DNA of 64,000 bases. Origin: Candidatus Latescibacterota bacterium. Its GTDB lineage: Bacteria > JAAXHH01. A program made the position numbers and the translations under genes. Location of the stretch: NCBI GenBank assembly GCA_022823465.1, contig JAJEHX010000040.1, forward strand, positions 1 through 64,000. The letters are read 5' to 3'. The stretch's first letter is position 1; each line of letters starts with the position of its first letter. Below are positions 37,317-54,364 of the stretch, one piece after another. The notes under the pieces were generated by a model. That model ran no database searches. It was not told where the DNA came from and saw only the letters and a list, made by a program, of their open reading frames with translations.

Positions 37317-38102
37317 CTATACCCTCATCCGCAGCATGGGGTGCGAAAAGGAAACATCGATGTACGCCCCGTCCCGCATGCGCTTCGTGCCGGGCGTCAT
37401 GTAGTGGATGGCGAAGGCACGGCGCTGCCGGTCCGTGACATTGGCCGGGGTGTGGTGCATGGTCTGGCAATGGTGGAACATGGCCCCGCCCGCGGGGAGG
37501 TCGACGACGGTCGCCCGTTCTGATGCCGCCTTTTCGCCCAGATCGAGGAGGGCGCTGGTCTCGGCCGACCGTTCGTGGGAAACCAAGTGCCGGTGCGAGC
37601 CCGGAATCAGGTGCATGGCCCCGTTCGAAACGTCCACGTCGTCCAGGGTGAGCCAGCAACTGACCAGATTGGCGGGAGTGCATTGCCAGTAGCCGTTGTC
37701 CTGGTGCCAGAAGACCGGGCCGCCCTGCCGGGGCGGTTTGTACAGCGCCTGGTCGTGGAACAGCTGGATATTGGGTCCGAGCAGGGACTCGACGACGTCC
37801 AGTATGGGCTCGTGGTACAACAGTTTTCTGAATTCGATGCTGCGCTCGCACATCTGCATGATCTGCAACATCTGCGACCGGGCTTTTTTCTTCCGGTGTT
37901 TGTCTTCCGTGTCGTCGATGGAAAGGTTTCGGTAACGGCCGCTTTCGCGCGCGGTCTCGAACACGCGGTCGTACTCCGCCCGCAGCACTTCGACGTGGTC
38001 GTCGTCAAGCAGTTGGCCGGCCACCAGGAACCCCTGGTCGTGAAACAGCCCGACCTCTTCGACGTTCAATCCGCCCTGCGTTTCCGACGGTACCGCGGAC
38101 AT
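37317..38102 (-). CDS. Phytanoyl-CoA dioxygenase (PhyH)-family oxygenase
   Basis: A 261-residue PhyH protein. The iron ligands are His-x-Asp in FWHQDNGYW and the distal His in QTMHHTPANVTD, with LIPGSHRHLVSHE between them and the 2OG-binding RRAFAIHYM after. Members hydroxylate lipids, amino acids or natural products; the target is not predictable. It lies first in a leftward pair and its start is only about 140 bases from the E1-alpha start, so the two transcripts diverge from a shared regulatory region. Confidence 0.88.
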   Translation of the reverse strand: MSAVPSETQGGLNVEEVGLFHDQGFLVAGQLLDDDHVEVLRAEYDRVFETARESGRYRNLSIDDTEDKHRKKKARSQMLQIMQMCERSIEFRKLLYHEPILDVVESLLGPNIQLFHDQALYKPPRQGGPVFWHQDNGYWQCTPANLVSCWLTLDDVDVSNGAMHLIPGSHRHLVSHERSAETSALLDLGEKAASERATVVDLPAGGAMFHHCQTMHHTPANVTDRQRRAFAIHYMTPGTKRMRDGAYIDVSFSHPMLRMRV

Positions 38103-38148
38103 GCTCTAGTCCTCTTTTTTCGATCTACCGGGAAGGCTAAAATCACCC

Positions 38149-38178
38149 TTGCCACTTAGGAAGATCTGTCTGTATTAT
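38149..38178 (+). promoter_or_regulatory. Sigma-70-type promoter for the E1/E2/PKS operon
   Basis: TTGCCA (38149-38154) and TATTAT (38173-38178) are separated by 18 bases, about 65 bases before the E1-alpha ATG, in the spacer shared with the divergent PhyH gene. Confidence 0.6.
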
Positions 38179-38205
38179 GGAATACTCACGACCCAATTTA
38201 AAGGC

Positions 38206-38229
38206 GCCTGTTCAACAGGCAAGTTTTTT
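38206..38229 (+). terminator. Possible leader attenuator before E1-alpha
   Basis: GCCTG TTCAA CAGGC forms a 5-bp hairpin followed three bases later by six T residues, between the predicted promoter and the E1-alpha ribosome site. The stem is short, so it may be a weak terminator or only a pause site. Confidence 0.35.
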
Positions 38230-38243
38230 AGCCGGAGATCCTT

Positions 38244-39230
38244 ATGCACGGCGATCGCGGGGAAAGATTCGAGCTCCACCGATGGCTGTACCGGACCATG
38301 TTCACGATCCGGACGGTGGAAGAACGGCTGGCGAGGTCCTTCATGGCCGGCCTGATCCACGGCGCGTGCCACACCTATGTCGGGGAGGAAGCCGTCGCCA
38401 CCGGGGTATGCGCCGGATTGACCGATGACGACGCGGTCTTCAGCACGCACCGGGGCCACGGCCACGCGCTGGCCAAGGGGGTGTCACCGGCCGCGCTGAT
38501 CGCCGAACTGTACGGCCGCGAGACCGGGATCTCCCACGGCCGGGGCGGCAGCATGCATCTCTTCGCTCCCGAGATCGGTCTCATGGGGACCAGCGGGATC
38601 GTGGGCCCCTGCATCCTGCAGGCCGCCGGGGCCGGATATAGTGCCAAACTGCTGGAGAACGGTAGTATAGGCGTGGCCTTCTTCGGCGACGGCGCCGTGG
38701 GGAACGGGGCCTTTCACGAAGGGCTGAATCTCGCCGCCATCTACGACCTGCCCGTCCTTTTCGTCTGCGAGAACAACCTGTACGCGACGGAAGTACCCTT
38801 TTCCTATGCCTCAAGGAACCCGGACGTGGCATCGCGCGCATCCGGATACGGCATAGCGGGCATCGGGGTCGACGGCAACGACGTGCTGGCCGTGCACGAA
38901 GCGGCCACAGGAGCCATTCGACGGGCCAGGGCGGGGGAAGGTCCGACCCTGATCGAGGCCCGGACCTACCGCACGCGCCCCCATGCCGAAGGCATGAGTC
39001 CCACTGGTGTGTACCGCACGGAGGAAGAAGTGGCCGAGTGGCGGGAGAAGGACCCCATCTCGAGGTTCAGAAGCCGGATCCTCTCCGAAGGAACGGTGCC
39101 GGAATCTGATCTTGACCGGATCGAATCCGACGTCCGGGCGGAAGTCGATGAAGCGGAGCGGGAAGCGGCCGCCGCGCCATGGCCCGACGGCGGCACGGCA
39201 CCCAGCCACGTCTACCGGGAGACGACATGA
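38244..39230 (+). CDS. 2-oxoacid (pyruvate/acetoin/branched-chain type) dehydrogenase E1 component, alpha subunit
   Basis: A 328-residue thiamine-diphosphate enzyme. The TPP/Mg motif is GDGAVGNGAFHEGLN ending at CENNLYA, and GRGGSMHLFAPEIGLMGTSG is the conserved E1-alpha segment. It decarboxylates a 2-oxoacid and passes the acyl group to the E2 lipoyl arm. In the phosphorylation-loop region the usual G-H-S is replaced by RTRPHAEGMSPTGVYR, similar to acetoin-type enzymes. A GGAG site precedes the ATG. It is the first of four genes running into the polyketide synthase; no E3 gene (lipoamide dehydrogenase) is nearby. Confidence 0.9.
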   Translation: MHGDRGERFELHRWLYRTMFTIRTVEERLARSFMAGLIHGACHTYVGEEAVATGVCAGLTDDDAVFSTHRGHGHALAKGVSPAALIAELYGRETGISHGRGGSMHLFAPEIGLMGTSGIVGPCILQAAGAGYSAKLLENGSIGVAFFGDGAVGNGAFHEGLNLAAIYDLPVLFVCENNLYATEVPFSYASRNPDVASRASGYGIAGIGVDGNDVLAVHEAATGAIRRARAGEGPTLIEARTYRTRPHAEGMSPTGVYRTEEEVAEWREKDPISRFRSRILSEGTVPESDLDRIESDVRAEVDEAEREAAAAPWPDGGTAPSHVYRETT

Positions 39231-39299
39231 CCGAAGGGCACACCGGCCGCGCCGTGGCGGCCTCATCGGGGCGACTCGACCTCAGGGACCTGTAACGGC

Positions 39300-40277
39300 A
39301 TGACCGAACGTACCTTTACGGAAGCCGCACGAGAAGCGCTGTCCGACGCCATGGACGCGGACCCCACCATATTCGTGGTCGGCGAAGGTGCGGGCGAACG
39401 CGGGGGCAATTTCGAGACCACGGCCGGTCTCTACGAAAAGCACGGTCCCGTGCGGCTCTGCGACACGCCCATCTGCGAGCGGGGCTTCATCGGGATGTGC
39501 ACCGGGGCGGCCATGACCGGGACCCGGCCCGTGGTGGACTTCATGTTCACGGATTTCATCCTCGACGGTCTGGGCGAACTGATCAACCAGACCTCCAAGA
39601 TGCAGTACATGAGCAACGGCCGCCTGAAGATGCCCATGGTCCTCCGGGGCTGCATCGGCATTGGCCACTCCGCGGCGACCCACCATTCCGGCAGCTACTA
39701 TCCCCTTTTCGTCCACATCCCGGGCTTCCGCGTGGCGCTGCCGTCCAATCCCGCGGACGCGAAGGGCCTGTTCGCCACGGCGCTGCGCAGCGAGGACCCG
39801 GTTTTCTTCATGGAGCACCGGCACCTGCTGAACCTGAAAGGGCCCGTCCCGGAAGGCGAGCACAGGGTGCCCTTCGGACAGGCCGCGGTGGCACGGGAAG
39901 GGACCGACGCCACGGTCGTGGCGCTGACCGTCATGGTCCACCATGCCCTGCAGATCGCCGAAGAGCTCTCCGGCGAAGGGGTTTCCCTGGAGATCATCGA
40001 TCCGCGCACCGTAGCGCCGCTGGACACGGAAACCATCCTCGAGTCCGTGCGGAAGACCGGCCGGCTGCTCATCGTGGACGAGACCTTCATGCCCTGCGGG
40101 ATCGGCGCCGAAATCTCCGCCCATGTGACGGAACACGGCTTTGACGAACTCGACGCGCCCATCATGCGGCTGAACGGCGCCCACGTGCCCACGCCCTACA
40201 GTCCTTCCCTCGAGCAGGCCGTCGTTCCGGACCGGGCGTCGATCGAACAGGCTGTCCGCGAACTGCTCGCGGAATAG
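39300..40277 (+). CDS. 2-oxoacid dehydrogenase E1 component, beta subunit
   Basis: A 325-residue transketolase-like subunit. FVVGEGAGERGG at the N-terminus, RLCDTPICERGFIGMCTGAA (which holds the TPP-activating glutamate) and PSNPADAKGLF are typical, and the C-terminal half is the transketolase C domain (IDPRTVAPLDTETILES, VDETFMPCGIGAEI). It pairs with E1-alpha to form the decarboxylase. The 69-base gap after E1-alpha contains a 22-codon frame that I consider incidental. It is followed after nine bases by the E2 gene. Confidence 0.92.
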   Translation: MTERTFTEAAREALSDAMDADPTIFVVGEGAGERGGNFETTAGLYEKHGPVRLCDTPICERGFIGMCTGAAMTGTRPVVDFMFTDFILDGLGELINQTSKMQYMSNGRLKMPMVLRGCIGIGHSAATHHSGSYYPLFVHIPGFRVALPSNPADAKGLFATALRSEDPVFFMEHRHLLNLKGPVPEGEHRVPFGQAAVAREGTDATVVALTVMVHHALQIAEELSGEGVSLEIIDPRTVAPLDTETILESVRKTGRLLIVDETFMPCGIGAEISAHVTEHGFDELDAPIMRLNGAHVPTPYSPSLEQAVVPDRASIEQAVRELLAE

Positions 40278-40286
40278 GAACGACTT

Positions 40287-41534
40287 ATGCCCTACGAAAT
40301 CGTCATGCCCCGGCTGGGCTGGAACATGGAAGAAGGCACGCTGGTCGAATGGCTGAAACAGGACGGAGATACCGTTCGTCAGGGCGAAATGGTGTGCACG
40401 ATCGAAGGCGACAAGGCCGCGGCGGAAATCGAGTCCTTTGAATCGGGTATCCTGAAGATCCCGAACGCTTCGCCGCCCCCGGGTCAGACCGTGCCGGTGG
40501 GCACCCTGCTGGGCTACATCGTAGCCGCAGCCGAACTGGAGGCCTTTGATCCGAACGCCGACCGGGGGCACGATGGGCCAAGCGAAAGCGTGGCGGCACT
40601 TCCCGGGAACGGAGCCGAGCCCGGTCACGATCCGACCGGACGCGCGCCGGACAACTCACGCGACACTGTGCCGACCGCCGGAGCCGCCACGGGTACCCTC
40701 CGCGAACAGGACGTACCCGCCATCAGTCCTCGGGCCCGCCGCGCGGCCGAGACCGCGGGAATCGACTGGCGGATGCTTAAAGGAAGCGGACGATCGGGCC
40801 GGATCGTGGAACGGGACGTCCTCGAAGCCGCGACGGATGGGGCGGACGGAAAAGCCGCCGTACAGGGCGACATGCGGCAGGTCATCGCCCGCCGAATGGC
40901 CGAAGCCCACCGGACCACGGCGCCGGTCACCCTGCACACCGAGGCGGACGTCACCGCCCTTTCGTCGTTTTTCGAGGACGGCTTCCGGCCGTCCTGGTAC
41001 GACCTCATGGCCGGGATCGCCGCCGTCGCCCTCGCCGAGCATCCGGTCATGAACGCGTCCTGGCGCGACGGTGTGGTGCTGAACGACGGGATTCACATCG
41101 GCATCGCGGTGGACACCGAAGGCGGGGTGATCGCGCCCGTGATCAGGGACGTGCCCGGCAAATCGCTCAAGGAGATTTCCACGGAATCGAAGCGCCTGAT
41201 CCAGGCTGCGCAGGCCGGCGAACTCACGCTCGACCAGATCGAGGGCGGGACCTTCACCCTGACCAACCTGGGCATGTTTGGCGTCGACGCCTTCACCCCG
41301 ATCATACATTATCCCCAGTGCGCGATTATCGGGCTCGGGCGGGCGGCACCGAGGGTGGTCGTTGTCGACGAATCGAGCGGGGAGACCGGCGTTCGCCGCA
41401 TGATGGCGCTCAGCCTGACCTTCGACCACCGGATCGTGGATGGCGCACCGGCCGCGAGGTTCCTTCGGCGGGTTAAACAGCTTGCCGAAGACCCCGTCGA
41501 ATGGCTCGGAAACAGGAAACACCTCGAAACCTGA
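40287..41534 (+). CDS. 2-oxoacid dehydrogenase E2 component (dihydrolipoyl acyltransferase)
   Basis: A 415-residue E2 with one lipoyl domain (residues 1-78; lipoylated lysine in IEGDKAAAEIES), a Pro/Gly/Asp-rich linker, a peripheral-subunit-binding domain (about 146-182; SPRARRAAETAGIDWRMLKG) and the acyltransferase core (about 200-415), ending with the catalytic TFDHRIVDGAPAARFL. It transfers the acyl group made by E1 onto CoA. The stop is only 23 bases from the start of the polyketide synthase, so acyl-CoA production and polyketide synthesis are probably co-expressed. Confidence 0.92.
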   Translation: MPYEIVMPRLGWNMEEGTLVEWLKQDGDTVRQGEMVCTIEGDKAAAEIESFESGILKIPNASPPPGQTVPVGTLLGYIVAAAELEAFDPNADRGHDGPSESVAALPGNGAEPGHDPTGRAPDNSRDTVPTAGAATGTLREQDVPAISPRARRAAETAGIDWRMLKGSGRSGRIVERDVLEAATDGADGKAAVQGDMRQVIARRMAEAHRTTAPVTLHTEADVTALSSFFEDGFRPSWYDLMAGIAAVALAEHPVMNASWRDGVVLNDGIHIGIAVDTEGGVIAPVIRDVPGKSLKEISTESKRLIQAAQAGELTLDQIEGGTFTLTNLGMFGVDAFTPIIHYPQCAIIGLGRAAPRVVVVDESSGETGVRRMMALSLTFDHRIVDGAPAARFLRRVKQLAEDPVEWLGNRKHLET

Positions 41535-41557
41535 TACAACCGAAGAAAGGGACGATC

Positions 41558-44500
41558 ATGTCGTCAGGTTCGTCGAACGGCCCAAACAGCGAAGTTACCG
41601 GAGATTTAAAGATGCGGAAACCGCACCCCACAGAGTCTGGTCAACCGATCGCCGTGGTCGGCATGGCCTGCCGATTCCCGCAGGCCCCCGATCTGCCCTC
41701 CTACTGGCGCCTGCTCGAAGAAGGCCGTAACGCCGTCATTGAGGGCGAGCCCGGTTCCGGTGTGGGACGGGTGGGCGAACTGTTTCCCGATTCAGGCGTG
41801 CCGAACTCGTCCTGCCGGTTCGGCGCCTACCTCGACGAATTGGACCTCTTCGACGCGCCGTTCTTCCGTATCTCTCCCGTTGAGGCGGAACGGCTGGACC
41901 CGCAGCAACGCATGATGCTCGAGGTGAGCTGGCAGGCGCTCGAGGATGCCGGGATGGATCCGGAAGGTCTGAAGGGCAGCCGCACGGGCGTCTACGCGGG
42001 CATCAGCAACTACGACTACCGCAACCTGATTCTGGGAACGGGTGAAACGTCCGAACCCGCCGCAAGCCTCTACACGGTCACCGGGACGTCCTTCAACACG
42101 GCCATCGGCCGGGTCGCCTATGTCCTGGGACTTGAGGGACCCGCGATGGCGCTGGACACGGCCTGTTCGTCTTCACTGGTCGCCATGCACCAGGCCGTGA
42201 CGGGACTGCAGCGGGGCGATGCGGACCTCGCGCTCGCAGGCGGGGTTCACGCGATTTTCTCCGGCAGGCTGCTCGAACTGCGGGCCAACGCCGGCATGCT
42301 CTCGCCGGACGGCCGGTGTGCGACCTTCGACGCCGGGGCGAACGGTTACGTACGCGGTGAAGGATGCGGAATCGTCGTCCTGAAACGGCTCGAAGAGGCG
42401 GAAGCCGATGGCGACCGCATCTGGGCCGTGATCCGCGGGTCGGCCGTGAACCAGGACGGCGCCAGTCCGGGCCTTACTGTGCCGAACGGGGCGTCGCAGG
42501 AAAAGGTGATCGAGCAGGCACTCGCCCGTGCGGGTGTCCAACCTTCGGAAGTGGACTATGTCGAGGCGCACGGTACAGGCACGGAAGTGGGCGATCCCAT
42601 TGAAGCGCTGGCCCTGGCCGCCGCATACGGCAGGGAACGCGAAGCGGACCGTCCGTTGCTGGTCGGCTCGGTCAAGACCAACATCGGACACCTGGAGCCG
42701 GCGGCGGGCGCCGCGGGCCTGATGAAGACCGTGCTGGCGATGCAACACGGCATGATTCCGAAACAGCTCCACTTCCAAACGCCGAATCCTGAGCTGGACT
42801 GGGATCGGCTGCCTCTCCAGGTGACTTCAGAGCCGACGGAGTGGCCTTTACGCCCTGGGCGCGCCCGCCTGGCGGGGGTGAGCGGGTTCGGGTGGTCGGG
42901 GACGAACGCGCACGTCGTCGTGGAGGGATACGACGGCCGGAAGGATGCCGAACCTGGGCCTTCGCCCACCGGATCACCGCGGCAAGTGACGGTCACGTTA
43001 CCAGCGCCGATTCCCGATCATACGACCGAACCGCGCGGGATCGGGCCGCGCGAAACTCGATTTCTCCCACTGTCCGGCAAATCGCCCGCGGCGCTGCGCG
43101 CACTCGCAAACCGCTACGTGGAGTGGCTGGACGGACATGCCGAAGATCTGTCCACCGGGGACGCCTCCGATCCGCTGCTTGCCGACATGGCATGGACCGC
43201 GGGCGTGGGGCGAAGCCACTTCCAGCACCGGGCGGGCGTGGTATTTCGGGACGCGGGTTCGCTTCGGGATGGCCTCGGTGAGCTTACGGAGGCCGATACC
43301 GGACCGGGATCGGACGATGGTGAAATAGCAGCCGGCAAGGTCGCTTTCCTGTACACCGGGCAGGCCAGTCAGTGGGTAGGGATGGGCGCCGAACTCTACG
43401 AGAGCGAACCCATCGTTCGGGCCGTCCTCGACCACTGCGACGCGCTGCTTCGCGAGTCCGGAAACGGTTCTTTGCTCGATGCGATGTTCGGGCGGTCCGC
43501 CGGGACCGGGCGATCCGCCGAGTCCGTTCTCCCACCCGATCTCGACGACCCGGTCTGGAAGCAGCCGGCGATCTATGCGCTGGAGTGCGCGTTGACCGCC
43601 CAATGGGCAAGCATAGGTATCCGCCCGGACGTGGTCCTCGGCCACAGTCTCGGAGAAATCGCGGCCGCGCAGGCGGCGGAAGTCTATTCGCTGGAGGACG
43701 GGTTGCGGTTCGCGGCCATCCGCGGAGCGTTGATGGCGGCCCTTCCCGGGGAGGGGGCGATGGCGGCGATTTTCGCGCCTGCGGACCGGGTGGCGGCGGC
43801 GGTGGCGGACCACAACGAAACCATTGCCGGAGTCGGGATCAGCGTGGCGGCGGACAACGGTGCGCACCAGGTGGTGAGCGGACCTGCCGATCAGGTCGAA
43901 GCGATCCTCTCCCGTTTCGAGCGGGAAGACTTCCGCGTACGGCTGTTGAGGAAGAGTCCCGCCTACCACAGCGCCATGATGGATCCTGTGCTGGACGACC
44001 TTGGAGAGGCCGTTTCCGGCATACGGACGCAACCGCCGTTAACACCGTACATAAGTAGCATGACCGGCTCCCTCGTGGGTGAAGGGCAGGAACTCGACGG
44101 CGCGTACTGGCGCCGGCAGACCCGCGAACCGGTAGCCTTCCGCAAGGCGATAGCAACGCTCGCGGACCTCGGAATCGGAACGGTGATCGAGGTAGGACCC
44201 CATGCGGTGCTGGGTCCAATGGTATCCATGGCGTGGCCGGACGCACCGGATTCCGGCGGGCCACCCGCCGTGCTTGCGAGTCTGCTGCGGCCGTCCCGAG
44301 AAGCGCCAGAAGAAGCGAGGGGCGCGTTTACCGTCGCCACCGCGCGGGCCTACGAACTCGGGTTGCCGGTTGCTCTGTCGAAGCTCTTCTGCGGAGAGGA
44401 GCGGCGCCGGATTTCGGTACCCGGCTATCCCTTTCAGCGCGAACGCCAGTGGATCGGAGCGGCAAGGCGGCAGCGCCCCTCGGTGGGCCATCCGCTGCTG

Positions 44501-47500
44501 GGCACGCGGCACGAATCCGCCAGCGGAGAGGTCGCCTTCGACACGGAACTGTTCCCCTCGGATCCGAGTTGGCTGAACGATCACCGGGTATTCGGCCGTT
44601 TCGTGGTTCCAGGCGCCCTGTTCGGATCGATGACAGCCGCCGCGGCTTCCGAAGAGGGTATCGAGGTTCCGGTTATCGAGGACCTGCAGCTCCACAGTCC
44701 GCTGATCCTCCCGGAAGAGGACGACTCGGACAGTACGATGGCGGCAGGCGTGCGCGTACAGATTCTGCTCGACGCTCCCTCGGACGAACCCGCGCGCCGC
44801 GTACGCATCCTCAGTAAGCGTTCCGATGAAGACGAGTGGAAGCTGCACACGGAGGCGCGGGTGTCGGCCACGAACGGCGAAGCAACGCCGAACCAGGACG
44901 TTGCCGGGTTGAAAGCGAGCCTGGCGCTGGAGGACGTGTCCGCCCTCTACCGGGCAAAAGCGGAAGTCGGGATCGAATTCGGTCCGTCGTTCCGCACCCT
45001 TCAGGCGGCCTGGTCAGGAGAAGGCGAAGCCCTCGCCGAGGTCGTGCTGCCCGCAGGCATCGATCAAAGTGGCATTGACCCGCATCCGCTACTGCTCGAC
45101 GGCTGTTTCCAGGTGATGGCGACCGCGAGGGAATCTACCGGAGCCGACAAAGGATCCACCTATCTGCCCTTCGGATGGGAACGGCTCCGGCTCGCAGGAC
45201 AATGGCCTGAGCGGGTTTTCTGCCACGTCCGGATGCGGCACCGCACATCGGACCAGGATCCGGAGGTGGAAAGCGGCGGGACTTCCGAAGTCTTTACGGC
45301 GGATATGACGATATGCGACACCGAAGGGACTCCCCTGGGAGAACTGACCGGATACACGGTGAAGCGCGCGACGCAGGCGACGCTGATCACGGACACGGAA
45401 GGGTTGGACGAACTCCTCTACGACATCGTGTGGCGCGAGCAGGCGCTTCTGCCGGGCATGCCGCCGGCCGACTTCCTCCGAACACCTTCCGACGTGGAGG
45501 ACAACTCGCCGATCTTCGCGACGTACCTGGCCGCCGAAGGCGTCGAGCCACACGAGAATACGAACCTGCAGAACGACCTGGAGCAACTGGCGTGGTCTTC
45601 TGCGCTCTCGAACCTGGAACGCCTCGGCTGGGAGCGAACGGCGGGATCACGCATAGAAGCTGAAAGCCTGCGGCGGCAGCTGGGCGTTCTCGACGAGCAC
45701 AGGCACCTTTTCCAACGGATGCTGAACCTGCTGTCGGATTCGGGCGTACTGAAAAAGACGGATGACGGATTCATCGTGGCGGTGGGGTCCGGTGACCCGC
45801 TCCCGGAAGGCCTGTCGGCAGACCCCGCGGAACGTGCGGCCCGGTTGACCACTTTGCATCCCCACGGCGCCAGCGAGATCGCCCTGTTCCGTCGATGTGC
45901 CGGCGCCCTGCCGGAGGTGCTGCGCGGTCAGGAGGATCCGCTGTCCCTGCTGTTCGGCGATGAAGAACCGCGTGCCGGCGATCTCTATATGAAGGCGCCG
46001 GTGTGGAAAGCCGCGAACCTGATGATGGGTGACGTGGTCGAGATGATCGTCGCCGGCTTGCCGGAAGGGCGGCGGCTCAAGGTGATCGAAGTCGGAGCGG
46101 GCGTCGGCTCGGCGACTGCCTGCATCCTTCCCAAGCTTCGCCCCGGCAGTTACGACTACACTTATACGGATATTTCGGCGGGCTTCTTCGCGGAAGCCCA
46201 GTCCCGTTTCAGCGACGAAGCGGATGCCATCGAGTACCGCGTGCTGGATATCGAAAAGGATCCGATTGCCCAGGGTTTCGACCTGCACGGATACGACGTG
46301 GTCATCGCCGCCAACGTGCTCCATGCGACGCAATACCTGAACGAGACGCTCGATCATTGCCGCCGGCTGCTCGCTCCTTCCGGCCAACTCATCGCGCTCG
46401 AGAACCAGCGGAAACGGGGTTGGATGGATCTGATCTTCGGGCAGCTCGACGGTTGGTGGCGGTTCGCCGACCGCTACCGGCCGAATCACGCCCTGGCGGG
46501 CCCCGATGTGTGGCGGCAGGCGCTGCTTGACGTCGGAATGGCGGAAGCGGAGGTCGTGGGGGTAGACCGAACGGAAGAAACCGGCCTGCCCGACCGCGGG
46601 GTGATCGTGGCCAGCGGACCGGCGGAGGTGATCCTGCCGGGCGGTGTGTGGGTGGTGGCGGCCGACCGGGGCGGATTGGGCGAGTCGGTTGCGATGGAAC
46701 TCGCGGCGCAAAACCAGACGGTCGTGCTGGCGGGCGAGGACTTCGTGTCGGGCGGGGACGCGTCGGGCGGGGACGCTCCCGATGGGACAATACGGGACGA
46801 GGAATCCTCAGGCGATGGGCTCGGAGTCGTCAGGCGAACCGTGGAACGCGACTCGCGGGAATCCTGGAGCGCCTTCTTCTCGGACCTGCCGGGCGATCCA
46901 CCGCTGGCAGGCATCGTGCATCTCGAAGCGCTCGACGGCCACGGACCAGGGGCAACCACCCCGGAGATGGCGGAGGACCTGAGACATGGGCTGGCGAGTG
47001 CGCTCGCCCTCGTCCAGGGCGCGGCGGACGCCGACGCGACGCCGTCCGGTGGAACCTGGTTCGTCACCCGGGGAGGCCAGATCCTCGAGCGCGAGCGAGG
47101 CGGCCAGCTCGCCGGCGCCGCGCTCTGGGGCTTCGGCAGAGTACTGGCCCGGGAAGCGGGCGACATGCGGCCCCGGATGATCGATCTCGATCCCGATGCC
47201 GCGCAGCCGGCCGACGACCTGGTCCAGGAACTGCTCTTCCCTGATCACCAAACGGACATCGCCCGCCGTGGTGACCGCCGCCTCGTCGCCCGCCTGGTCC
47301 GGGCCGAAGACGGTGTGGAGCGCCTGTCCCTGCCCGAAGATGCGGACTGGAAACTCGTACAGGATGAAGCCGGTGCGCTCGAGGAACTGCATGCCGAACC
47401 CAGGCAGGCGCATCCCCTGGAGCCCGGCGAAGTCCGGGTTTCGGTCGACGTATGCGGACTGAACTTTCTGGATGTCTTCCGTGCGATCGGCCTGGTGCCG

Positions 47501-50500
47501 GGAGGACATCTCGGATCGGAATTCTGCGGCCGGATCCGTGAGGTGGGTTCCGAGGTGACCACGGTCGCTCCTGGAGACCGCGTGGTCGGCCTGGCCTTCG
47601 GCGCCATGGGCGCGGAGGCCGTCACCCTGGAAGAACTGGTGGCGCCCGCCCCACCGAAGCTGCCGACCGCGGCCCTGGCGACGATGCCCGAGGTATTCGT
47701 AACGGCGGCCCTTTCCTTCGAGCTTACCGGGCTGGAAACCGGTGACAGGGTACTGGTTCACGCCGGGGCGGGCGGCGTGGGCCTGGCGGCCATCCAGCTG
47801 GCCCAGGCCGCCGGTGCGGAGGTCTTCGCGACCGCGAGCGCGCCGAAACGGGCGTACCTGCGGTCGCTGGGCGTAAAGCACGTCTTCGACAGCCGCCAGA
47901 CAGCCTTCGGAGAGGAGATCCTCGAAGTTACAGGAGGCACGGGCGTCGACGTTGTGGTAAACAGCCTTACCGGAGAAGGCTTCATCGAAGCGAGCCTTTC
48001 CTGTCTCGCACAGGGGGGACGCTTCGTGGAGTTGGCCCGAAGGGACATCCTGAGCCCCGAAGAGATGGCCGAGACGCGTCCGGACGTGGCCTACTCCATC
48101 CTGGAACTCGATGTGCTCAAAACGCAGGATCCCGCTCGGCCGGGGGCCGCCCTGAGGCAGGTGATGCGCAGGCTTGAGGCGGGTGAATTGAAGCCGCTGA
48201 TCCACGCCGTGTGGCCGATGTCTGAAACACGTTCCGCCATGGCGTTCATGCGCGGCGCGAGACATATCGGGAAAATCATCCTGGCCGCGCCGCCGCTTCG
48301 GGCGGGCGGGCTGCGGCAGGATCGCACCTACCTGGTCACCGGCGGTCTGGGCGGCATCGGGTGTGCCGTAGCGCAATGGCTCGCCGATCACGGGGCGAGG
48401 ACCATCGTGCTGAACGGTCGAAGAGACCCGGACCCGGAAGCCGGGGAAACGATTTCCGCACTCCAAAATCGCGGCGTCACGGTGCAGGTCGAACTCGCGG
48501 ACCTGACCGACCCGGCCGCGGTTGACGCGATGTTCGAGCGGATTGGCAGCGAACTGCCGCCCCTTGCCGGCGTGATCCATAGCGTGGGCGTGCTGGCGGA
48601 CGGCGCAGTCGGGAACCAGAGTTGGGAACGGTTCGAGAGCGTGGTACGGCCGAAAGCGCTTGGGGCCTGGCATCTGCACCGGGCAACCGAGCACCTCGAC
48701 CTGGACATGTTCGTCCTGTTTTCGAGCGTAGCCGGGGTCCTTGGAAACCCCGGGCAGTCCAACCACGCTTCCGCCAACGCATTTCTCGATCAACTCGCCG
48801 CGCACCGGCGCGCGCTGGGCCTGCCCGGACAGGCCATCGCCTGGGGCGCCTGGTCCGAGATCGGTGAAGCCGAGGAACAGCGGGAACGCATTGCCCAGCG
48901 GGTCGAAGCGACCGGGATCGAATGGATCACGCCGCAGCAGGGTCTCCTTGCGTTCGAACGGCTTCTGCGGGAGGATGGAGCGACCGGTGTGGTGCTGGCC
49001 AGGGACTGGTCCGTCTTCGACCAACCCGGCGACGGCCGTCCGCCTTTGCTGAGTGAGATCCTGTCGGCCCTCGATACCGATAGCGACGATACGCCAGGAC
49101 TGTCTGAAGAACTGCTCCCCCGGCTCCGGGAGACCCCGGCGGCGGAACGGGAGGACCTGATCCTGTCTTTCCTGCAGGAGGAAGTCCAGGCGGTACTGAG
49201 TCTGCCGACGACGCCGGCCTCGAACGTCGGCTTCTTCGACCTGGGCATGGATTCGCTCATGGCGGTGGAGTTTCGGAACCGGGTGAACCGGGCGCTTGCG
49301 GGCAGCTATACGGCGCCCAACACCCTGGTTTTCGACTATCCGGATATCTCGTCGCTCGTAGCGCACCTGGTCGACGAGATCGGCGACGCCGAACTGGATA
49401 GCGACGGTCTTGAAACCGGAGACGGCGCCGGGAGCGAAACTGCCACCGATCCCGTGGCGCCAACCGAATCCGGGAGCGAAGCTGCCGCCGATCCCGTGGC
49501 GACAACCGGGCCCGGGAGCGGAACCGTGCCACGGACCGACAACGAAGGCATTGCCATCATAGGCATGGCCTGTCGCTTCCCCGGCGCATCGGACCTGAAC
49601 ACCTTCTGGAGCATGCTGGAAAATGGTGCGGATGCCGTGACGGATGCCCGTCCCGACGCCGGATCTGGGATCGTTCCGTCAAACGAGTCGGACCAGGGCG
49701 ACGAAGGTTGGCGTCGCGGGGGATTCATTGACGGCATCGACCGGTTCGATGCCAGATTCTTCAGGGTATCGCCACTGGAAGCGCGCAGTATGGATCCTCA
49801 GCAGCGCATGCTGCTGGAGACGAGTTGGCACGCGCTGGATGACGCGGGAATCGATCCCGACCGGCTCAGGGGTTCGCGTACAGGCGTGTACACGGGCATT
49901 TCTTCCAGCGATTACCGTGATCTGATGATGGACAGGCGAGATAGTGTCGATTACCTGGGTACCAACAGGAGCCTCGCGGTGAGCCGGGTATCCTTCTTGT
50001 TGGGCCTGGAAGGTCCCGCGATACCCTTGGAGTTGAATTGCGCCTCCGCGCTGTTCGCCGTTCACCAGGCCGTGGCCGGCCTTCGTCTCGGAGAAGTGGA
50101 CATGGCCCTTGCCGGCGGCGTGAATACGGTGCTGTCCCCCGATTTGACGGCGGGAATGGCGTACCTGGGCATGCTGTCCCATGAAGGCCGCTGCAGCGCC
50201 TTCGACGCCAGGGCGGACGGTTTCGTGCGCGGTGAAGGCTGCGGCGTACTCGTACTGAAACGACTGAGCGCGGCGCAAGCGGCCGGAGACCGCATCTGGG
50301 GTGTGATCCGGGGTTCGGCAGTCAACCAGAACGGCGCGACCGCGGGTCCCACGGTGCCCAACGGTCCCGCGCAGGAACGAGTGATCGAAGACGCGCTTAC
50401 GCAGGCGGGCGTCGATCCGGCGGAAGTGGACTATCTGGAAGCCCACGGGGCCGGATCGGCGCTGGGCGACCCGATCGAGGTGCAGGCGGCCGCCGCGGTC

Positions 50501-52123
50501 TATGGAAGAGGACGCGCATCGGACCGACCCCTGCTAATCGGATCGGTAAAGACCAATATCGGTCATCTCGAGTCCGCTGCCGGCCTCGCCGGACTGATCA
50601 AGGCGGTCATGGCAATGCACCGTCAGCGTATCCCGAAACAACTGCACTTCGAAAAACCGAACCCGAACGTGGACTGGGATCGACTTCCCGTGCGAGTGGT
50701 GTCGGAAGCGGCGGACTGGCCAACTTATCCCGATCGGCCGCATCGCGCGGCGGTCAGCGCTTTCGGCGTATCCGGAGCAAACGCCCACGTGGTGGTCGAG
50801 AGCTATGGGACTTGCGCCGACGGCGCGCAGTCCGCCGAAACGGGGTTCAGGGTGACCGGCACCCGGCAAACCGTCGCGGTGAAGCTGCCTGCGGGCGTCC
50901 CTGAACCGCAATGGGAGGACCTGCGTCCCCGGACGCGGGCAAACCGCCTCCTGCCGCTCTCGGGCAAGAATCCCGCGGCGCTCATGGAACTTTCCGGAAA
51001 TTACCTGTCCTGGCTGGATCGATGTCTCGCGACCGGTTCGAACGAGGAATCGGAAGAGGAGTTCCTGGCGGATATGGCCTGGACCGCGAGCATCGGAAGA
51101 AGCCATTTCAATTGCCGGTCCGGCGTGGTGTTTCGCGATATCGCTACACTTCGCCAGGGGCTGGAAGAACTCGCTTCGAACGAAGCGCCATCAGCGTCCG
51201 TCGAGACGAACTGGATAAACGTGGCCGCGGCCAGACGGAAGGCGGCTTTCGTATATGATGGATGGGACGGCAGGTGGCGGGATATCGCTAAGGGTCTGTA
51301 TGACACGGAACCCGTTGTCCGAGGCTTCCTGGATCACTGCGAAGCGCTGTTTCGCAACGAAACGGACACCTCCCTGCTGGATCCCCTGTTTGACGGGGAC
51401 GGGACGGAGAAACCGGTCAACGGTCCGGCCTGGACGGATCCAGCGGCCTATTCGCTCCAGTGCGCGGTCACGGCCTTGTGGTCCAGCCTGGATGTACGAC
51501 CCGGAGTGGTGTGTGGCCGCGGTGTCGGGGAGATCGCCGCCGCGCAGACTGCCGGAGCGTTTACCCTCGATGAGGGGCTCCGCATCGCATTGGCCCGCGG
51601 GGAGACCGTCAGGGCCATGGACGAAAACCGTTCTGAAGAAGTACCGGTGGAAGCAGCGTTGGCCAGGCTGGATGGGATAAACGTATCTACACCGTCGCTC
51701 GCCATCGTCAGCGGCGCTACAGGAAACGAGGTAGGGGCGGCGGACGTGCTGGACTTAGACCGATGGCTTCATCAGACGCTCGTGGGCCATGTTGCAAGCG
51801 CCGCGGCTCGAAACATGGCCGGTCTTGCCGTGGATACGCTGATAGAGATTGGGCCGGGATCGGAGTTCGCGGTGGATCTGACCGAAGCGTGGCCGGAGGT
51901 GCCGGCGGGTGTAGCCGCCGCGGCTCCCGCTTTATTAGGCAGTCTTTCTCGTTCTTCCGATGGAGCCGATGAGGAAGAAGGCGACGGATTCCTTCAGGCG
52001 GCGAAGACGGCCTACGATATCGGTTTGCCGATATCCCCGGAAGGACTGTTCGCGGGCGAATCCCGTCGCAGGCGCTCCCTGCCCGGCTATCCGTTCCAGC
52101 GCAGGCGCTTCTGGATCGGCTAA
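41558..52123 (+). CDS. Iterative-type type I polyketide synthase, KS-AT-DH-cMT-ER-KR-ACP-KS-AT*
   Basis: A 3,521-residue synthase. Domains in order are KS1 (28-458; Cys203, His338, His378), AT1 (595-905; Ser697 in GHSLGE), DH (976-1270; His1009 in HRVFGRFVVP, Asp1181), C-methyltransferase (SAM motif VGAGVG near 1513), a structural KR half, ER (1950-2245; HAGAGGVGLAA), KR (2250-2500; TGGLGGIG), ACP (Ser2566 in GMDSL), KS2 (2663-3080; Cys2828, His2963) and a degenerate AT2 (3225-3510). The first seven domains form one complete fully reducing, methylating module like a fungal highly reducing PKS, so a methyl-branched fatty-acyl product made iteratively is likely. AT1 has AYHS at the specificity motif, closer to malonyl- than methylmalonyl-CoA types. 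No thioesterase is present. The domain plan recalls the 'Sup' synthases of sponge symbionts. Confidence 0.93.
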   Translation: MSSGSSNGPNSEVTGDLKMRKPHPTESGQPIAVVGMACRFPQAPDLPSYWRLLEEGRNAVIEGEPGSGVGRVGELFPDSGVPNSSCRFGAYLDELDLFDAPFFRISPVEAERLDPQQRMMLEVSWQALEDAGMDPEGLKGSRTGVYAGISNYDYRNLILGTGETSEPAASLYTVTGTSFNTAIGRVAYVLGLEGPAMALDTACSSSLVAMHQAVTGLQRGDADLALAGGVHAIFSGRLLELRANAGMLSPDGRCATFDAGANGYVRGEGCGIVVLKRLEEAEADGDRIWAVIRGSAVNQDGASPGLTVPNGASQEKVIEQALARAGVQPSEVDYVEAHGTGTEVGDPIEALALAAAYGREREADRPLLVGSVKTNIGHLEPAAGAAGLMKTVLAMQHGMIPKQLHFQTPNPELDWDRLPLQVTSEPTEWPLRPGRARLAGVSGFGWSGTNAHVVVEGYDGRKDAEPGPSPTGSPRQVTVTLPAPIPDHTTEPRGIGPRETRFLPLSGKSPAALRALANRYVEWLDGHAEDLSTGDASDPLLADMAWTAGVGRSHFQHRAGVVFRDAGSLRDGLGELTEADTGPGSDDGEIAAGKVAFLYTGQASQWVGMGAELYESEPIVRAVLDHCDALLRESGNGSLLDAMFGRSAGTGRSAESVLPPDLDDPVWKQPAIYALECALTAQWASIGIRPDVVLGHSLGEIAAAQAAEVYSLEDGLRFAAIRGALMAALPGEGAMAAIFAPADRVAAAVADHNETIAGVGISVAADNGAHQVVSGPADQVEAILSRFEREDFRVRLLRKSPAYHSAMMDPVLDDLGEAVSGIRTQPPLTPYISSMTGSLVGEGQELDGAYWRRQTREPVAFRKAIATLADLGIGTVIEVGPHAVLGPMVSMAWPDAPDSGGPPAVLASLLRPSREAPEEARGAFTVATARAYELGLPVALSKLFCGEERRRISVPGYPFQRERQWIGAARRQRPSVGHPLLGTRHESASGEVAFDTELFPSDPSWLNDHRVFGRFVVPGALFGSMTAAAASEEGIEVPVIEDLQLHSPLILPEEDDSDSTMAAGVRVQILLDAPSDEPARRVRILSKRSDEDEWKLHTEARVSATNGEATPNQDVAGLKASLALEDVSALYRAKAEVGIEFGPSFRTLQAAWSGEGEALAEVVLPAGIDQSGIDPHPLLLDGCFQVMATARESTGADKGSTYLPFGWERLRLAGQWPERVFCHVRMRHRTSDQDPEVESGGTSEVFTADMTICDTEGTPLGELTGYTVKRATQATLITDTEGLDELLYDIVWREQALLPGMPPADFLRTPSDVEDNSPIFATYLAAEGVEPHENTNLQNDLEQLAWSSALSNLERLGWERTAGSRIEAESLRRQLGVLDEHRHLFQRMLNLLSDSGVLKKTDDGFIVAVGSGDPLPEGLSADPAERAARLTTLHPHGASEIALFRRCAGALPEVLRGQEDPLSLLFGDEEPRAGDLYMKAPVWKAANLMMGDVVEMIVAGLPEGRRLKVIEVGAGVGSATACILPKLRPGSYDYTYTDISAGFFAEAQSRFSDEADAIEYRVLDIEKDPIAQGFDLHGYDVVIAANVLHATQYLNETLDHCRRLLAPSGQLIALENQRKRGWMDLIFGQLDGWWRFADRYRPNHALAGPDVWRQALLDVGMAEAEVVGVDRTEETGLPDRGVIVASGPAEVILPGGVWVVAADRGGLGESVAMELAAQNQTVVLAGEDFVSGGDASGGDAPDGTIRDEESSGDGLGVVRRTVERDSRESWSAFFSDLPGDPPLAGIVHLEALDGHGPGATTPEMAEDLRHGLASALALVQGAADADATPSGGTWFVTRGGQILERERGGQLAGAALWGFGRVLAREAGDMRPRMIDLDPDAAQPADDLVQELLFPDHQTDIARRGDRRLVARLVRAEDGVERLSLPEDADWKLVQDEAGALEELHAEPRQAHPLEPGEVRVSVDVCGLNFLDVFRAIGLVPGGHLGSEFCGRIREVGSEVTTVAPGDRVVGLAFGAMGAEAVTLEELVAPAPPKLPTAALATMPEVFVTAALSFELTGLETGDRVLVHAGAGGVGLAAIQLAQAAGAEVFATASAPKRAYLRSLGVKHVFDSRQTAFGEEILEVTGGTGVDVVVNSLTGEGFIEASLSCLAQGGRFVELARRDILSPEEMAETRPDVAYSILELDVLKTQDPARPGAALRQVMRRLEAGELKPLIHAVWPMSETRSAMAFMRGARHIGKIILAAPPLRAGGLRQDRTYLVTGGLGGIGCAVAQWLADHGARTIVLNGRRDPDPEAGETISALQNRGVTVQVELADLTDPAAVDAMFERIGSELPPLAGVIHSVGVLADGAVGNQSWERFESVVRPKALGAWHLHRATEHLDLDMFVLFSSVAGVLGNPGQSNHASANAFLDQLAAHRRALGLPGQAIAWGAWSEIGEAEEQRERIAQRVEATGIEWITPQQGLLAFERLLREDGATGVVLARDWSVFDQPGDGRPPLLSEILSALDTDSDDTPGLSEELLPRLRETPAAEREDLILSFLQEEVQAVLSLPTTPASNVGFFDLGMDSLMAVEFRNRVNRALAGSYTAPNTLVFDYPDISSLVAHLVDEIGDAELDSDGLETGDGAGSETATDPVAPTESGSEAAADPVATTGPGSGTVPRTDNEGIAIIGMACRFPGASDLNTFWSMLENGADAVTDARPDAGSGIVPSNESDQGDEGWRRGGFIDGIDRFDARFFRVSPLEARSMDPQQRMLLETSWHALDDAGIDPDRLRGSRTGVYTGISSSDYRDLMMDRRDSVDYLGTNRSLAVSRVSFLLGLEGPAIPLELNCASALFAVHQAVAGLRLGEVDMALAGGVNTVLSPDLTAGMAYLGMLSHEGRCSAFDARADGFVRGEGCGVLVLKRLSAAQAAGDRIWGVIRGSAVNQNGATAGPTVPNGPAQERVIEDALTQAGVDPAEVDYLEAHGAGSALGDPIEVQAAAAVYGRGRASDRPLLIGSVKTNIGHLESAAGLAGLIKAVMAMHRQRIPKQLHFEKPNPNVDWDRLPVRVVSEAADWPTYPDRPHRAAVSAFGVSGANAHVVVESYGTCADGAQSAETGFRVTGTRQTVAVKLPAGVPEPQWEDLRPRTRANRLLPLSGKNPAALMELSGNYLSWLDRCLATGSNEESEEEFLADMAWTASIGRSHFNCRSGVVFRDIATLRQGLEELASNEAPSASVETNWINVAAARRKAAFVYDGWDGRWRDIAKGLYDTEPVVRGFLDHCEALFRNETDTSLLDPLFDGDGTEKPVNGPAWTDPAAYSLQCAVTALWSSLDVRPGVVCGRGVGEIAAAQTAGAFTLDEGLRIALARGETVRAMDENRSEEVPVEAALARLDGINVSTPSLAIVSGATGNEVGAADVLDLDRWLHQTLVGHVASAAARNMAGLAVDTLIEIGPGSEFAVDLTEAWPEVPAGVAAAAPALLGSLSRSSDGADEEEGDGFLQAAKTAYDIGLPISPEGLFAGESRRRRSLPGYPFQRRRFWIG

Positions 52124-52149
52124 GCGCTGACGGTTATTTCGAACGCAAG

Positions 52150-52191
52150 AAGCCCGTCTGCGCGTTCGTGGACGAAGTAGCAGACGGGCTT
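52150..52191. terminator. Hairpin between the PKS and the convergent carrier-protein gene
   Basis: AAGCCCGTCTGC (52150-52161) and its exact complement (52180-52191) make a 12-bp stem with an 18-base loop, 26 bases past the PKS stop and 32 bases past the stop of the convergent ACP gene. There is no long T run, so it may act for both strands as a barrier or rho-assisted stop. Confidence 0.6.
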
Positions 52192-52222: not shown

Positions 52223-52465
52223 TCAGGTGGCGGCGTCCAGGCGCCGGACAAGTTCCGCTACGCTCTTGACGTCCACACAATCTTGCGCGGTGAATTCCAC
52301 GCCGAAATCTTCGGCAACGATCTTTGCGAACGCCAGCATGTCAACGGAGGAAACGCCGGCCTCCGAAAGGCTGATGTTGAGATCATCCGGCAACGCGATG
52401 GGTTGCCCGTCAACTTCCAGGTTGTCCGCAATGAGCTTTCTGATACGATCAGCGGTCGTAGCCAT
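52223..52465 (-). CDS. Free-standing acyl carrier protein
   Basis: An 80-residue acidic four-helix carrier protein (RIRKLIADNLEVDG, then AGVSSVDMLAFAKIVAEDFG). The phosphopantetheine serine is the second of the SSV triplet, where ACPs usually have DSL. The ATG at 52465 is preferred over one 6 bases upstream because AAGGAAG is spaced correctly. It converges on the PKS gene and diverges from the permease gene. It could supply a carrier for the terminal KS2, which has no downstream ACP, or serve a different ligase. Confidence 0.85.
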   Translation of the reverse strand: MATTADRIRKLIADNLEVDGQPIALPDDLNISLSEAGVSSVDMLAFAKIVAEDFGVEFTAQDCVDVKSVAELVRRLDAAT

Positions 52466-52615
52466 AGACATCTTCCTTTCCATAAGGGAACAAACGATTA
52501 CGGATTGACTGAGATTACCGGTTATAGTATAACGTCCGGATATTTTAAAATCAACAAAAAGAATAAAGAAAATCATACGGACAATACGCAGGCGGCAGCC
52601 GGGAGAAACTTCCAA

Positions 52616-54364
52616 ATGAATGCTGGCGGATCCGTCATTCGATCGGGCTTGCGATATCAACCGGATGAACGTCCTCCGACGACGCTCGCGCTCGGCCTCG
52701 GACTGCAATTGGCCTTGCTCAATATCGCCGCGGTGATGATCATCCCCACGATCGTCATGCGGGCCGCGGCCCAGCCGGAAGACTACGTCGCGTGGGCCGT
52801 GTTCGCCTCGGTCGCGATCTGCGGCGCGACCACGATGCTGCAGGCGCTACGCTACGGCCGGATCGGTTCGGGCCATCTCCTGGTCATGGGCACGTCGGCG
52901 GCGTACATATCCATATGCATCGAAGCTCTGGCCGCAAGCGGTCCAGCCCTGCTCGCCGTACTGGTCGTTATTTCCTCCCTGGTCCCGATAGCGCTTTCGT
53001 GGCGGCTGTCGTTGTTCCAGCGCATCCTCACGCCCACGGTTTCAGGCACGGTGATCATGTTGATCCCGATTACGGTGATGCCCGTGATGGGCGATATGCT
53101 GTCGTCGACGCCGGATGGGAAGTTGTCACCCGGCGCCGTCCTCAGCGCCGCGGCGACCGTGGTCATCATCTCCGGCTTTAGTCTCAAAGGTCCCGCGAAG
53201 CTGCGTCTCTGGGCGCCGATCATCGGCGTGGCCGCCGGCACCGTGGTTGGCGGCTTCTTCGGACTGTACGACGTGGATAGAGTGGCCGGGGCGGACTGGA
53301 TCAACCTGCCCGCGATAGTCTGGCCGGGATTCAACCTTGATTTCGGGGGTGATTTCTGGGTGCTGATCCCGGGTTTTCTGCTAGTGGCGGTGATCGTCTC
53401 GCTCCGTACGATCAGCAGTTGCGTCGCCATCCAGCGCATCTCATGGCGACAGTCCAGGGCGGTCGATTACAGATCGATACAGGGCGCCATGACCGTCGAC
53501 GGCGTGGGATCCTTCCTCTCCGGACTCGCGGGAACCGTGCCGGGCACGACCTACACGACCAGCGTGCCGCTCATAGAAATCACCGGCGTCGCCGCCCGAA
53601 CGGCAGGTCTCTTCGCCGGCGCCGCTTTCGTGGCGCTCGTGTTCCTGCCGAGGGCGTTCGCCGTGGTCCTGGCGATTCCGGACGCGGTCTTCGCGGCGTA
53701 CTTCATGGTGCTTCTGGCGATGCTCTTCATCGTCGGACTCAAGATCGTCATCCAGGACGGACTCGACAAGAACAAGGGCTTCATCGTGGGCGCCGCCTTC
53801 CTGGTGGGATTCAGTTTCCAGTATGAACTGATCTACCCGGAGTTCGTCTCGCAGTTCGCGGGCGGCCTGTTCCGGAACGGCATGACTGCGGGCGGCCTGG
53901 TCGCCATTCTCCTCAACCTGGCGCTCAGCGCCACGGGATACCGCCGTTATCGGATGGAGACGGAACTGGACATGTCCGTCCTGCCCGAAATCCGGTCGTT
54001 CCTCGGAGACTTCGCATCCCGGTCCGGCTGGGACGCGGCCATGGCAGACCGTCTCGACGCCGTGGGCGAAGAGGCGCTGCTGACGCTCGTCCGGCAGGAA
54101 GAGCGTGAGCGGAGAAGTCTGCGACTCGTCGTATCCAGGGAAGAAGGCGGGGCAGTGCTCGAGTTCATCGTTACACCGAGGGGCGAGAACATCCAGGACA
54201 GGCTCGCGATGCTGCCCGGCGAGTCGGACGAAACGTCCATCGAACAGGAAGTCTCCCTCCGGCTCCTGCGGCACCTCGCGTCATCCGTACGCCACCAGCA
54301 GTATCACGACACGGATATCGTCACCGTACGCGTTAAAGCCACGGCGGCGGACCCGGCCGGCTGA
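52616..54364 (+). CDS. NCS2-type permease (xanthine/uracil family) with C-terminal ATPase-like domain
   Basis: A 582-residue protein. The first 440 residues contain about twelve membrane helices with the NCS2 pattern (LGLGLQLALLNIAAVMIIPT, VDGVGSFLSGLAGTVPGTTY). The last 130 residues are soluble, from LPEIRSFLGDFASRSGWDAA to LLRHLASSVRHQQYHD. They resemble the histidine-kinase-like ATPase fold of anti-sigma proteins, but the N and G boxes for ATP are not evident. GGGAGA precedes the ATG at 52616. The cargo could be a nucleobase or another small anion; the extra domain suggests a sensory or regulated transporter. Confidence 0.78.
   Translation: MNAGGSVIRSGLRYQPDERPPTTLALGLGLQLALLNIAAVMIIPTIVMRAAAQPEDYVAWAVFASVAICGATTMLQALRYGRIGSGHLLVMGTSAAYISICIEALAASGPALLAVLVVISSLVPIALSWRLSLFQRILTPTVSGTVIMLIPITVMPVMGDMLSSTPDGKLSPGAVLSAAATVVIISGFSLKGPAKLRLWAPIIGVAAGTVVGGFFGLYDVDRVAGADWINLPAIVWPGFNLDFGGDFWVLIPGFLLVAVIVSLRTISSCVAIQRISWRQSRAVDYRSIQGAMTVDGVGSFLSGLAGTVPGTTYTTSVPLIEITGVAARTAGLFAGAAFVALVFLPRAFAVVLAIPDAVFAAYFMVLLAMLFIVGLKIVIQDGLDKNKGFIVGAAFLVGFSFQYELIYPEFVSQFAGGLFRNGMTAGGLVAILLNLALSATGYRRYRMETELDMSVLPEIRSFLGDFASRSGWDAAMADRLDAVGEEALLTLVRQEERERRSLRLVVSREEGGAVLEFIVTPRGENIQDRLAMLPGESDETSIEQEVSLRLLRHLASSVRHQQYHDTDIVTVRVKATAADPAG

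Follow-up and report, generated by a model that had tools for sequence, protein, structure and literature searches.

A Sup-like polyketide synthase cassette behind a 2-oxoacid dehydrogenase operon in a genus of Latescibacterota

A 64,000-nucleotide stretch from a Candidatus Latescibacterota bacterium (positions 1 to 64,000 of contig JAJEHX010000040.1, assembly GCA_022823465.1; hereafter the window) carries genes for the E1-alpha, E1-beta and E2 components of a 2-oxoacid dehydrogenase complex, followed directly by a gene for a large polyketide synthase (PKS) resembling the Sup synthases. Comparison with related loci led us to the reading, held at a probability of roughly 0.72, that the PKS belongs to a mobile Sup-type cassette lying behind a resident E1/E2 operon, and that E1/E2 does not belong to the synthase as a dedicated partner. 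This reading was adopted because E1/E2 accompanies the PKS in one genus only among the loci examined, because the two have come apart in two genomes of that genus, because same-order genomes hold E1/E2 orthologues free of a PKS, and because the genes recurring beside the PKS elsewhere do not include E1/E2. The features concerned are as follows.

38244-39230, + strand: E1-alpha of a 2-oxoacid dehydrogenase, pyruvate-dehydrogenase-like (Pfam E1_dh, 276 bits)
39300-40277, + strand: E1-beta of a 2-oxoacid dehydrogenase (Pfam Transket_pyr and Transketolase_C)
40287-41534, + strand: E2 (Pfam Biotin_lipoyl, with one lipoyl domain, E3_binding and 2-oxoacid_dh, the acyltransferase domain, with HRIVDG)
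41558-52123, + strand: Sup-like PKS of 3521 aa, Pfam domain order KS-AT-DH-MT-ER-KR-ACP-KS-AT
52223-52471, - strand: discrete acyl carrier protein (ACP; Pfam), recurrent beside this Sup-like PKS family
52616-54364, + strand: NCS2-type (xanthine/uracil) permease with a C-terminal extension, recurrent beside the same family
54392-55321, - strand: alpha/beta hydrolase, a candidate for chain release, also recurrent there
37317-38102, - strand: PhyH-family dioxygenase, divergent from E1-alpha, syntenic in the genus and not a recurrent PKS neighbour elsewhere

By their open reading frame coordinates, the E1-alpha, E1-beta, E2 and PKS genes follow one another on the + strand and are separated by 69, 9 and 23 bases, as an earlier sequence-only reading of this DNA had described; an alternative start of the PKS frame at 41501 would overlap E2. 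The good promoter which that reading had placed before E1-alpha was recovered as a promoter-like site by a consensus scan, and the operon indeed lacks an E3 gene, the sole Pyr_redox_dim (E3) match of the assembly being located on another contig (C50). Not mentioned there were the second, C-terminal KS-AT pair of the PKS, the opposite-strand discrete ACP, the permease, the alpha/beta hydrolase, and a conserved leader with a terminator-like hairpin.

Distribution of E1/E2 and of the recurrent PKS neighbours

Genome contigs were scanned for the PKS family with a 12-row KS1 alignment, and the best 80 of 559 confirmed loci (KS1 identity 62-99%) were taken for comparison, 4 of them from the window's genus and 76 from other lineages. 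These 80 loci sit in metagenome-assembled genomes (MAGs) titled with more than ten phyla, although the titles are only a guide, the genus members L081 and L147 being themselves titled Gemmatimonadetes; most of these MAG sets presumably come from sponges. Matches to E1-alpha, E1-beta and E2 were found in none of the 76 other-lineage loci (tblastn, 1e-5, within the stretch examined for each locus), where the sequence available before KS1 amounted to at least 1 kb in 71 loci, 3 kb in 64, 5 kb in 59 and 9 kb in 51.

Both flanks were inspected in 47 genomes drawn from 50 of the 76 loci, with L136, G109 and G118 left out (the contigs of G109 and G118 end too soon). The recurrent neighbours were the discrete ACP in 43 genomes, a count that may contain a few carrier domains from broken PKS frames, the alpha/beta hydrolase in 39, the NCS2-type permease, with its about 140 extra C-terminal residues, in 28, and a phosphopantetheinyl transferase (PPTase) in 24, while PhyH-type genes were encountered in 8, E1/E2 in 1 and WelO5-like genes in none. 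G086, a genome of another lineage, is an example: its PKS, ACP, PPTase and hydrolase genes are consecutive, LolA and FtsK stand upstream of them, and 20 kb of sequence gave no match to E1/E2. The sole E1/E2 case, G130, comprises E1-alpha and E1-beta of 36% and 45% identity, respectively, and a lipoyl-domain match about 5.5-7.7 kb downstream of the PKS, the E1 pair itself spanning 5.5-7.4 kb and adjoining a Rieske/ring-hydroxylating oxygenase and an SDR; as a distant pair in a different gene setting, it was set aside as a second example of E1/E2 with this PKS. By a rough estimate assuming about three pairs per 4 Mb (the copy number of G000) and a view of at most 20 kb, some 0.7 E1-pair finds would be expected by chance in 47 genomes.

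The recurrent set therefore consists of the PKS, the ACP and the hydrolase, often together with the permease and the PPTase, and E1/E2 placed before the PKS is limited, among the loci examined, to the window's Latescibacterota genus. With E1/E2 absent beside close PKS homologues outside that genus, save for one distant downstream pair, the dedicated acyl-CoA supply advanced by the sequence-only reading was not borne out; such an absence is the outcome which that reading itself had named as refuting.

Within the genus set of 12 genomes (G000-G011), E2 or its remainder is followed by the PKS or its remainder in every case, G004 ending inside E2, G006 ending inside E1-alpha and G009 being split over two contigs. 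As far as the contigs reach, the order WelO5-like oxygenase, PhyH, E1/E2, PKS, opposite-strand ACP, permease and hydrolase is conserved across the genus, and E1-beta is 91-98% identical to that of the window (92-98% in a separate comparison of eight congeners). G007 retains E1-alpha, E1-beta and E2 whole, followed by PKS fragments with frame breaks and then a partial hydrolase, and neither an ACP nor a permease match was detected on the approximately 1 kb of contig left behind the PKS remnant. G011 shows the opposite lesion: its PKS frame is intact (3514 aa), while its E2 (L073 3255-3831) spans only 192 aa, having kept the lipoyl and E3-binding domains in frame and lost the whole acyltransferase (catalytic) domain. 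E1/E2 and the PKS thus separate in both directions within the genus. Moreover, two genomes of the same order, G014 and G015, possess E1/E2 orthologues (E1-beta 67-68% identical) with no PKS directly behind; behind E2, G014 has a frame that is truncated where the contig stops and whose PhyH match barely exceeds the cut-off (22.3 of 22 bits), and G015 has opposite-strand genes, Tex among them.

Several points weigh against a resident operon joined by a mobile cassette. The family scan covers the best 80 loci out of 559, 17 of the 76 other-lineage loci have less than 5 kb upstream, and 3 of the 47 genomes have none of the ACP, hydrolase, permease and PPTase. G007 and G011 are MAGs, in which misassembly could account for either lesion, and the ACP and permease of G007 may lie elsewhere, its contig ending about 1 kb past the remnant. 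In addition, all 12 genomes of the genus preserve the E2-PKS junction, if with a PKS remnant in G007 and a truncated E2 in G011, and there may be selection for joint expression of E1/E2 and the PKS in the genus, because this junction is kept, the leader described below is identical in 10 of 10 loci and no promoter-like site was found at the junction. The whole flanking region is syntenic, which weakens the argument from joint expression and does not remove it.

The strongest competitor is that E1/E2 serves as a dedicated supplier of an acyl-CoA, such as a branched starter, to the PKS, and we regard it as unlikely. The tight same-strand spacing, the conserved E2-PKS junction and its lack of a promoter-like site would be in agreement with such a role, for which the window's E1 pair, as one of three in the genome, may be free; nevertheless, E1/E2 is missing from all 76 other-lineage loci and appears in the flank set just once, distant and downstream, G007 and G011 have each kept one part with the other damaged, and the same-order orthologues have no PKS. 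The E1 subunits are also closer to pyruvate than to branched-chain dehydrogenases of known structure in PDB, which both match less well, a result that is weak evidence on the substrate.

The remaining properties of the dehydrogenase genes were surveyed in the assembly (3.86 Mb, 55 contigs, 98% complete). Four E1_dh matches were obtained, one of them within a 1032-aa frame read as the 2-oxoglutarate type, and the three E1-alpha/E1-beta pairs are located on C47 (the window locus), C1 and C6. An E2 stands behind the pairs of C47 and C1; the frame behind the C6 pair, which Pfam assigned to a dicarboxylate symporter, was rejected as an E2. Four POR matches, one inside the window, and a single PPTase match, on C23, were also noted. 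The window's E1-alpha, E1-beta and E2 have the domains expected of pyruvate and branched-chain 2-oxoacid dehydrogenase complexes, those of the pyruvate dehydrogenase complex being present down to the HxxxDG of E2, and E1-beta exceeded the cut-off of the PDH-beta subfamily (338 vs 321 bits). In contrast to those complexes, E1-alpha remained below its curated equivalog cut-off (335 of 394 bits), and E2 scored below every curated equivalog listed. E1-alpha/beta pairs inside biosynthetic clusters are also described for paulomycin (pau11/12) and avilamycin (AviB1/B2), where they are proposed to add a two-carbon sugar branch rather than to supply a PKS in the form of an E1/E2 operon (PMC4425429).

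On the far side of the PhyH gene, the product of 36435-37277 (- strand) is a WelO5-type halogenase by its Pfam name. Its iron-binding motif is HID, with Asp present, which by the rule that we assume here fits an oxygenase and not a halogenase. Further downstream, 57849-60950 (+ strand) forms a single 1033-aa frame combining APH-like kinase, M23 peptidase and class III aminotransferase domains.

Promoter and leader before E1-alpha

Two elements precede E1-alpha.

38149-38178, + strand: promoter-like site TTGCCA-18-TATTAT, with 10 of 12 consensus matches and a similar sequence in aligned genus members
38206-38237, + strand: 5' leader, a small hairpin followed by GGCAAGTTTTTTAGCCGGAG; terminator-like, with a T run and a 20-nt block

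The consensus scan returned two promoter-like sites in 37900-38300, one per strand, against 0.1 expected, and none in 41300-41700 around the E2-PKS junction of the window; such scans are not evidence of function. The leader block GGCAAGTTTTTTAGCCGGAG proved identical in all ten aligned genus loci, the contigs of G004 and G006 ending before it, and occurs as a single copy in the genome even when up to three mismatches are allowed, whereas the loci of G014 and G015 gave no match to it. The leader belongs to E1/E2 expression in this Latescibacterota genus.

A known riboswitch or other RNA before E1-alpha was rejected, as Rfam gave no match to the leader. Up to an E value of 1, Rfam yielded two matches, both to ASpks and each lying on the - strand within one of the PKS's two KS regions; the match antisense to KS1 (42602-42676, -) was above the gathering score and the other below, and they probably reflect coding similarity among KS domains. 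A regulon was likewise rejected on both counts considered: the palindrome is not conserved exactly among the congeners, and the genome has only three sequences that differ from it by one mismatch, while the leader occurs there just once.

E1/E2 and the PKS are probably expressed as one transcript in this genome, read from the E1/E2 promoter. A purely regulatory coupling, in which the cassette would use the promoter and leader of E1/E2 and synthesis would follow central carbon flux without a metabolite being channelled, was judged improbable, somewhat more so than dedicated supply. The conserved promoter-like site and 20-nt block, the uniqueness of the leader in the genome and the lack of a promoter-like site before the PKS would fit such an arrangement, yet the ACP and the hydrolase, encoded on the opposite strand, would fall outside the transcript, and consensus scans do not prove function.

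Domains and mosaic history of the PKS

As described in the literature, Sup (SupA) is a small type I PKS, very abundant and diverse in sponge microbiomes; it is known from MAGs belonging to several phyla, of which a single sponge may harbour more than one, and is proposed to produce mid-chain methyl-branched fatty acids (PMC4245539, PMC3908369, PMC9426513, PMC9864124). The window PKS is similar in uniting reducing domains and a C-methyltransferase in one protein, a Sup trait that we deduced from the proposed product and in part assumed. Its KS1 carries the motifs LDPQQRMMLE and EAHGTGTEVGDP, and thus the DPQQR and HGTGT that are given as the targets of supA-amplifying primers (PMC4245539), and its family is likewise spread over many phyla. 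The likeness was judged from published descriptions and KS motifs. A possible difference is that the papers call Sup mono-modular, while the window family consists of one full module plus a C-terminal KS-AT lacking the AT serine. The methylating PKS of Sup type claimed by the sequence-only reading is supported. Its description as fully reducing held in part: KR, DH and ER domains are all present, but the KR is without its catalytic tyrosine.

The Swf synthases resemble the window PKS as sponge-associated iterative PKS/fatty acid synthases with carrier and reducing domains, and show the order KS-AT-DH-ER-KR-ACP, no methyltransferase, an altered DPQQR, HATGT, and the partners swfB and swfC (PMC3908369). 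Membership in this group was rejected, since the window PKS has an MT domain and intact DPQQR and HGTGT. One survey assigns SUP-like families to Chloroflexota, Spirochaetota, Proteobacteria and Acidobacteriota, whereas Nitrospirota, Latescibacterota and Acidobacteriota are listed for swf-like families (PMC9426513); type I PKS clusters are also reported from sponge Latescibacterota (PMC12993501). The nearest solved KR structure was that of mycocerosic acid synthase (MAS; 9d2y, E 4e-45), which has Tyr where the window KR has His. MAS is an iterative reducing synthase of methyl-branched chains as well; it is not known to have an MT domain and takes methylmalonyl units.

Catalytic residues were compared in an alignment of 91 PKS frames, reduced to 87 rows after 4 from duplicate contigs were dropped; 61 of the 87 reach at least 3200 codons, most of the shorter ones being interrupted by a contig end or a frame break. 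At the position of the catalytic Tyr of KR, His was found in all 71 rows with a letter (16 gaps). The motif K-S-H-N was present in 67 rows (15 empty, 5 partial or misaligned) and in all 62 frames carrying both KS cysteines, while four KR motifs from other type I PKSs of G000, G013, G114 and G043 served as controls and had Tyr, the motif expression matching nothing in two further stretches. The serine position of AT2 held a letter in 54 rows (G 41, N 6, D 5, A 2) and never Ser; the same was true of the 62 two-cysteine frames (49 letters: G 40, N 6, D 2, A 1; 13 gaps). AT2 of the window is also 71 residues shorter than AT1 from motif to end motif, and others are similarly short where both could be measured. 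The residues C-H-H of KS1 and S-H of AT1 were complete in 74 of the 87 rows, most others being gapped. AT1 has the motif AYHS or AFHS, which we take to indicate malonyl loading. Among 60 other-lineage loci, the median identity to the window was 73% for KR, 51% for DH and 42% for AT2, and KR and KS1 were the best conserved domains of the PKS.

The His of KR and the AT2 without serine are the strongest unexpected facts at the locus. The invariance of the KR motif and the high conservation of the domain argue for a functional KR; its His could be catalytic, or could mark a changed reduction programme. A literature search that did not cover the founding papers (Fieseler 2007; Hochmuth 2010) and from which no absence from print is claimed found no mention, in the text available, of a Sup PKS with E1/E2 next to it or of a KR with this His. 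That the PKS locus is decaying or non-functional, as the loss of the AT2 serine and about 70 residues, the replaced KR Tyr and the G007 remnant might imply, is most improbable given that the same AT2 and KR changes recur across phyla in all rows aligning there, in frames that are mostly long, with KS1 and AT1 residues intact in 74 rows and with KR among the best conserved domains.

The PKS is also a mosaic. In a quick KS1 tree of 37 rows, ten genus sequences fell into two deep clades, and monophyly of the genus was rejected (p-AU 3e-43, the group having been tested after the identities were seen); in a quick KS2 tree of the same 37 rows, the genus sequences lay on one side of a branch with a support of 99. 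Compared in 150-residue steps, the window PKS is 42-75% identical to that of its congener L141 as far as residue 2550 and 70-91% identical beyond that point; for the Binatia-titled L082 the corresponding values are 51-83% and 43-77%. Against congeners with another module type, the first module is 44-77% identical by domain, whereas E1-beta is 91-98% identical across the genus. The trees and identity steps together point to an in-place exchange of module 1, with the switch near ACP1 and the C-terminal part retained. By these comparisons, the first module of the window PKS (41558-49200) is foreign to the genus and the C-terminal KS-AT native, as also in G005 and G009 and, differently, in G004.

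Proposed course of events and significance

For the favored reading of a resident E1/E2 operon and a mobile cassette, we propose the following course. A horizontally spreading cassette of PKS, discrete ACP, NCS2-type permease and alpha/beta hydrolase would have settled behind E1-alpha/E1-beta/E2 in the genus ancestor, the resident E1/E2 most likely being there first and the cassette arriving second. E1/E2 would have its own job, the oxidative decarboxylation of pyruvate or a related 2-oxoacid, together with the genome's single E3. The PKS would build a methyl-branched acyl chain, AT1 loading malonyl units, KS1 extending iteratively, MT methylating with S-adenosylmethionine, and KR, DH and ER reducing. 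The chain would then pass to the C-terminal KS2; with AT2 dead, the discrete ACP would have to carry the extender for KS2 after being loaded in trans, and the alpha/beta hydrolase would release the product. Iteration, the KS2-ACP step, release and the product class are deduced from the domains.

It is tentatively suggested, at rather less than even odds, that the PKS family is mechanistically a kind of its own, with a ketoreductase that works through the invariant His, a KS and vestigial AT finishing the chain with a trans-loaded discrete ACP, and a module 1 that moves from phylum to phylum although the C-terminal KS is inherited with its host lineage; E1/E2 would then be a side issue of one genus.

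Sup-type synthases are the reported dominant PKS genes of many sponge microbiomes, with products that are proposed and not proven. Separating their recurrent partners, namely the ACP, hydrolase, permease and PPTase, from the local E1/E2 guides the choice of genes for co-expression, and the His of KR, the AT2 without serine and the swap of module 1 provide testable points on the mechanism of the enzyme and its spread between phyla.

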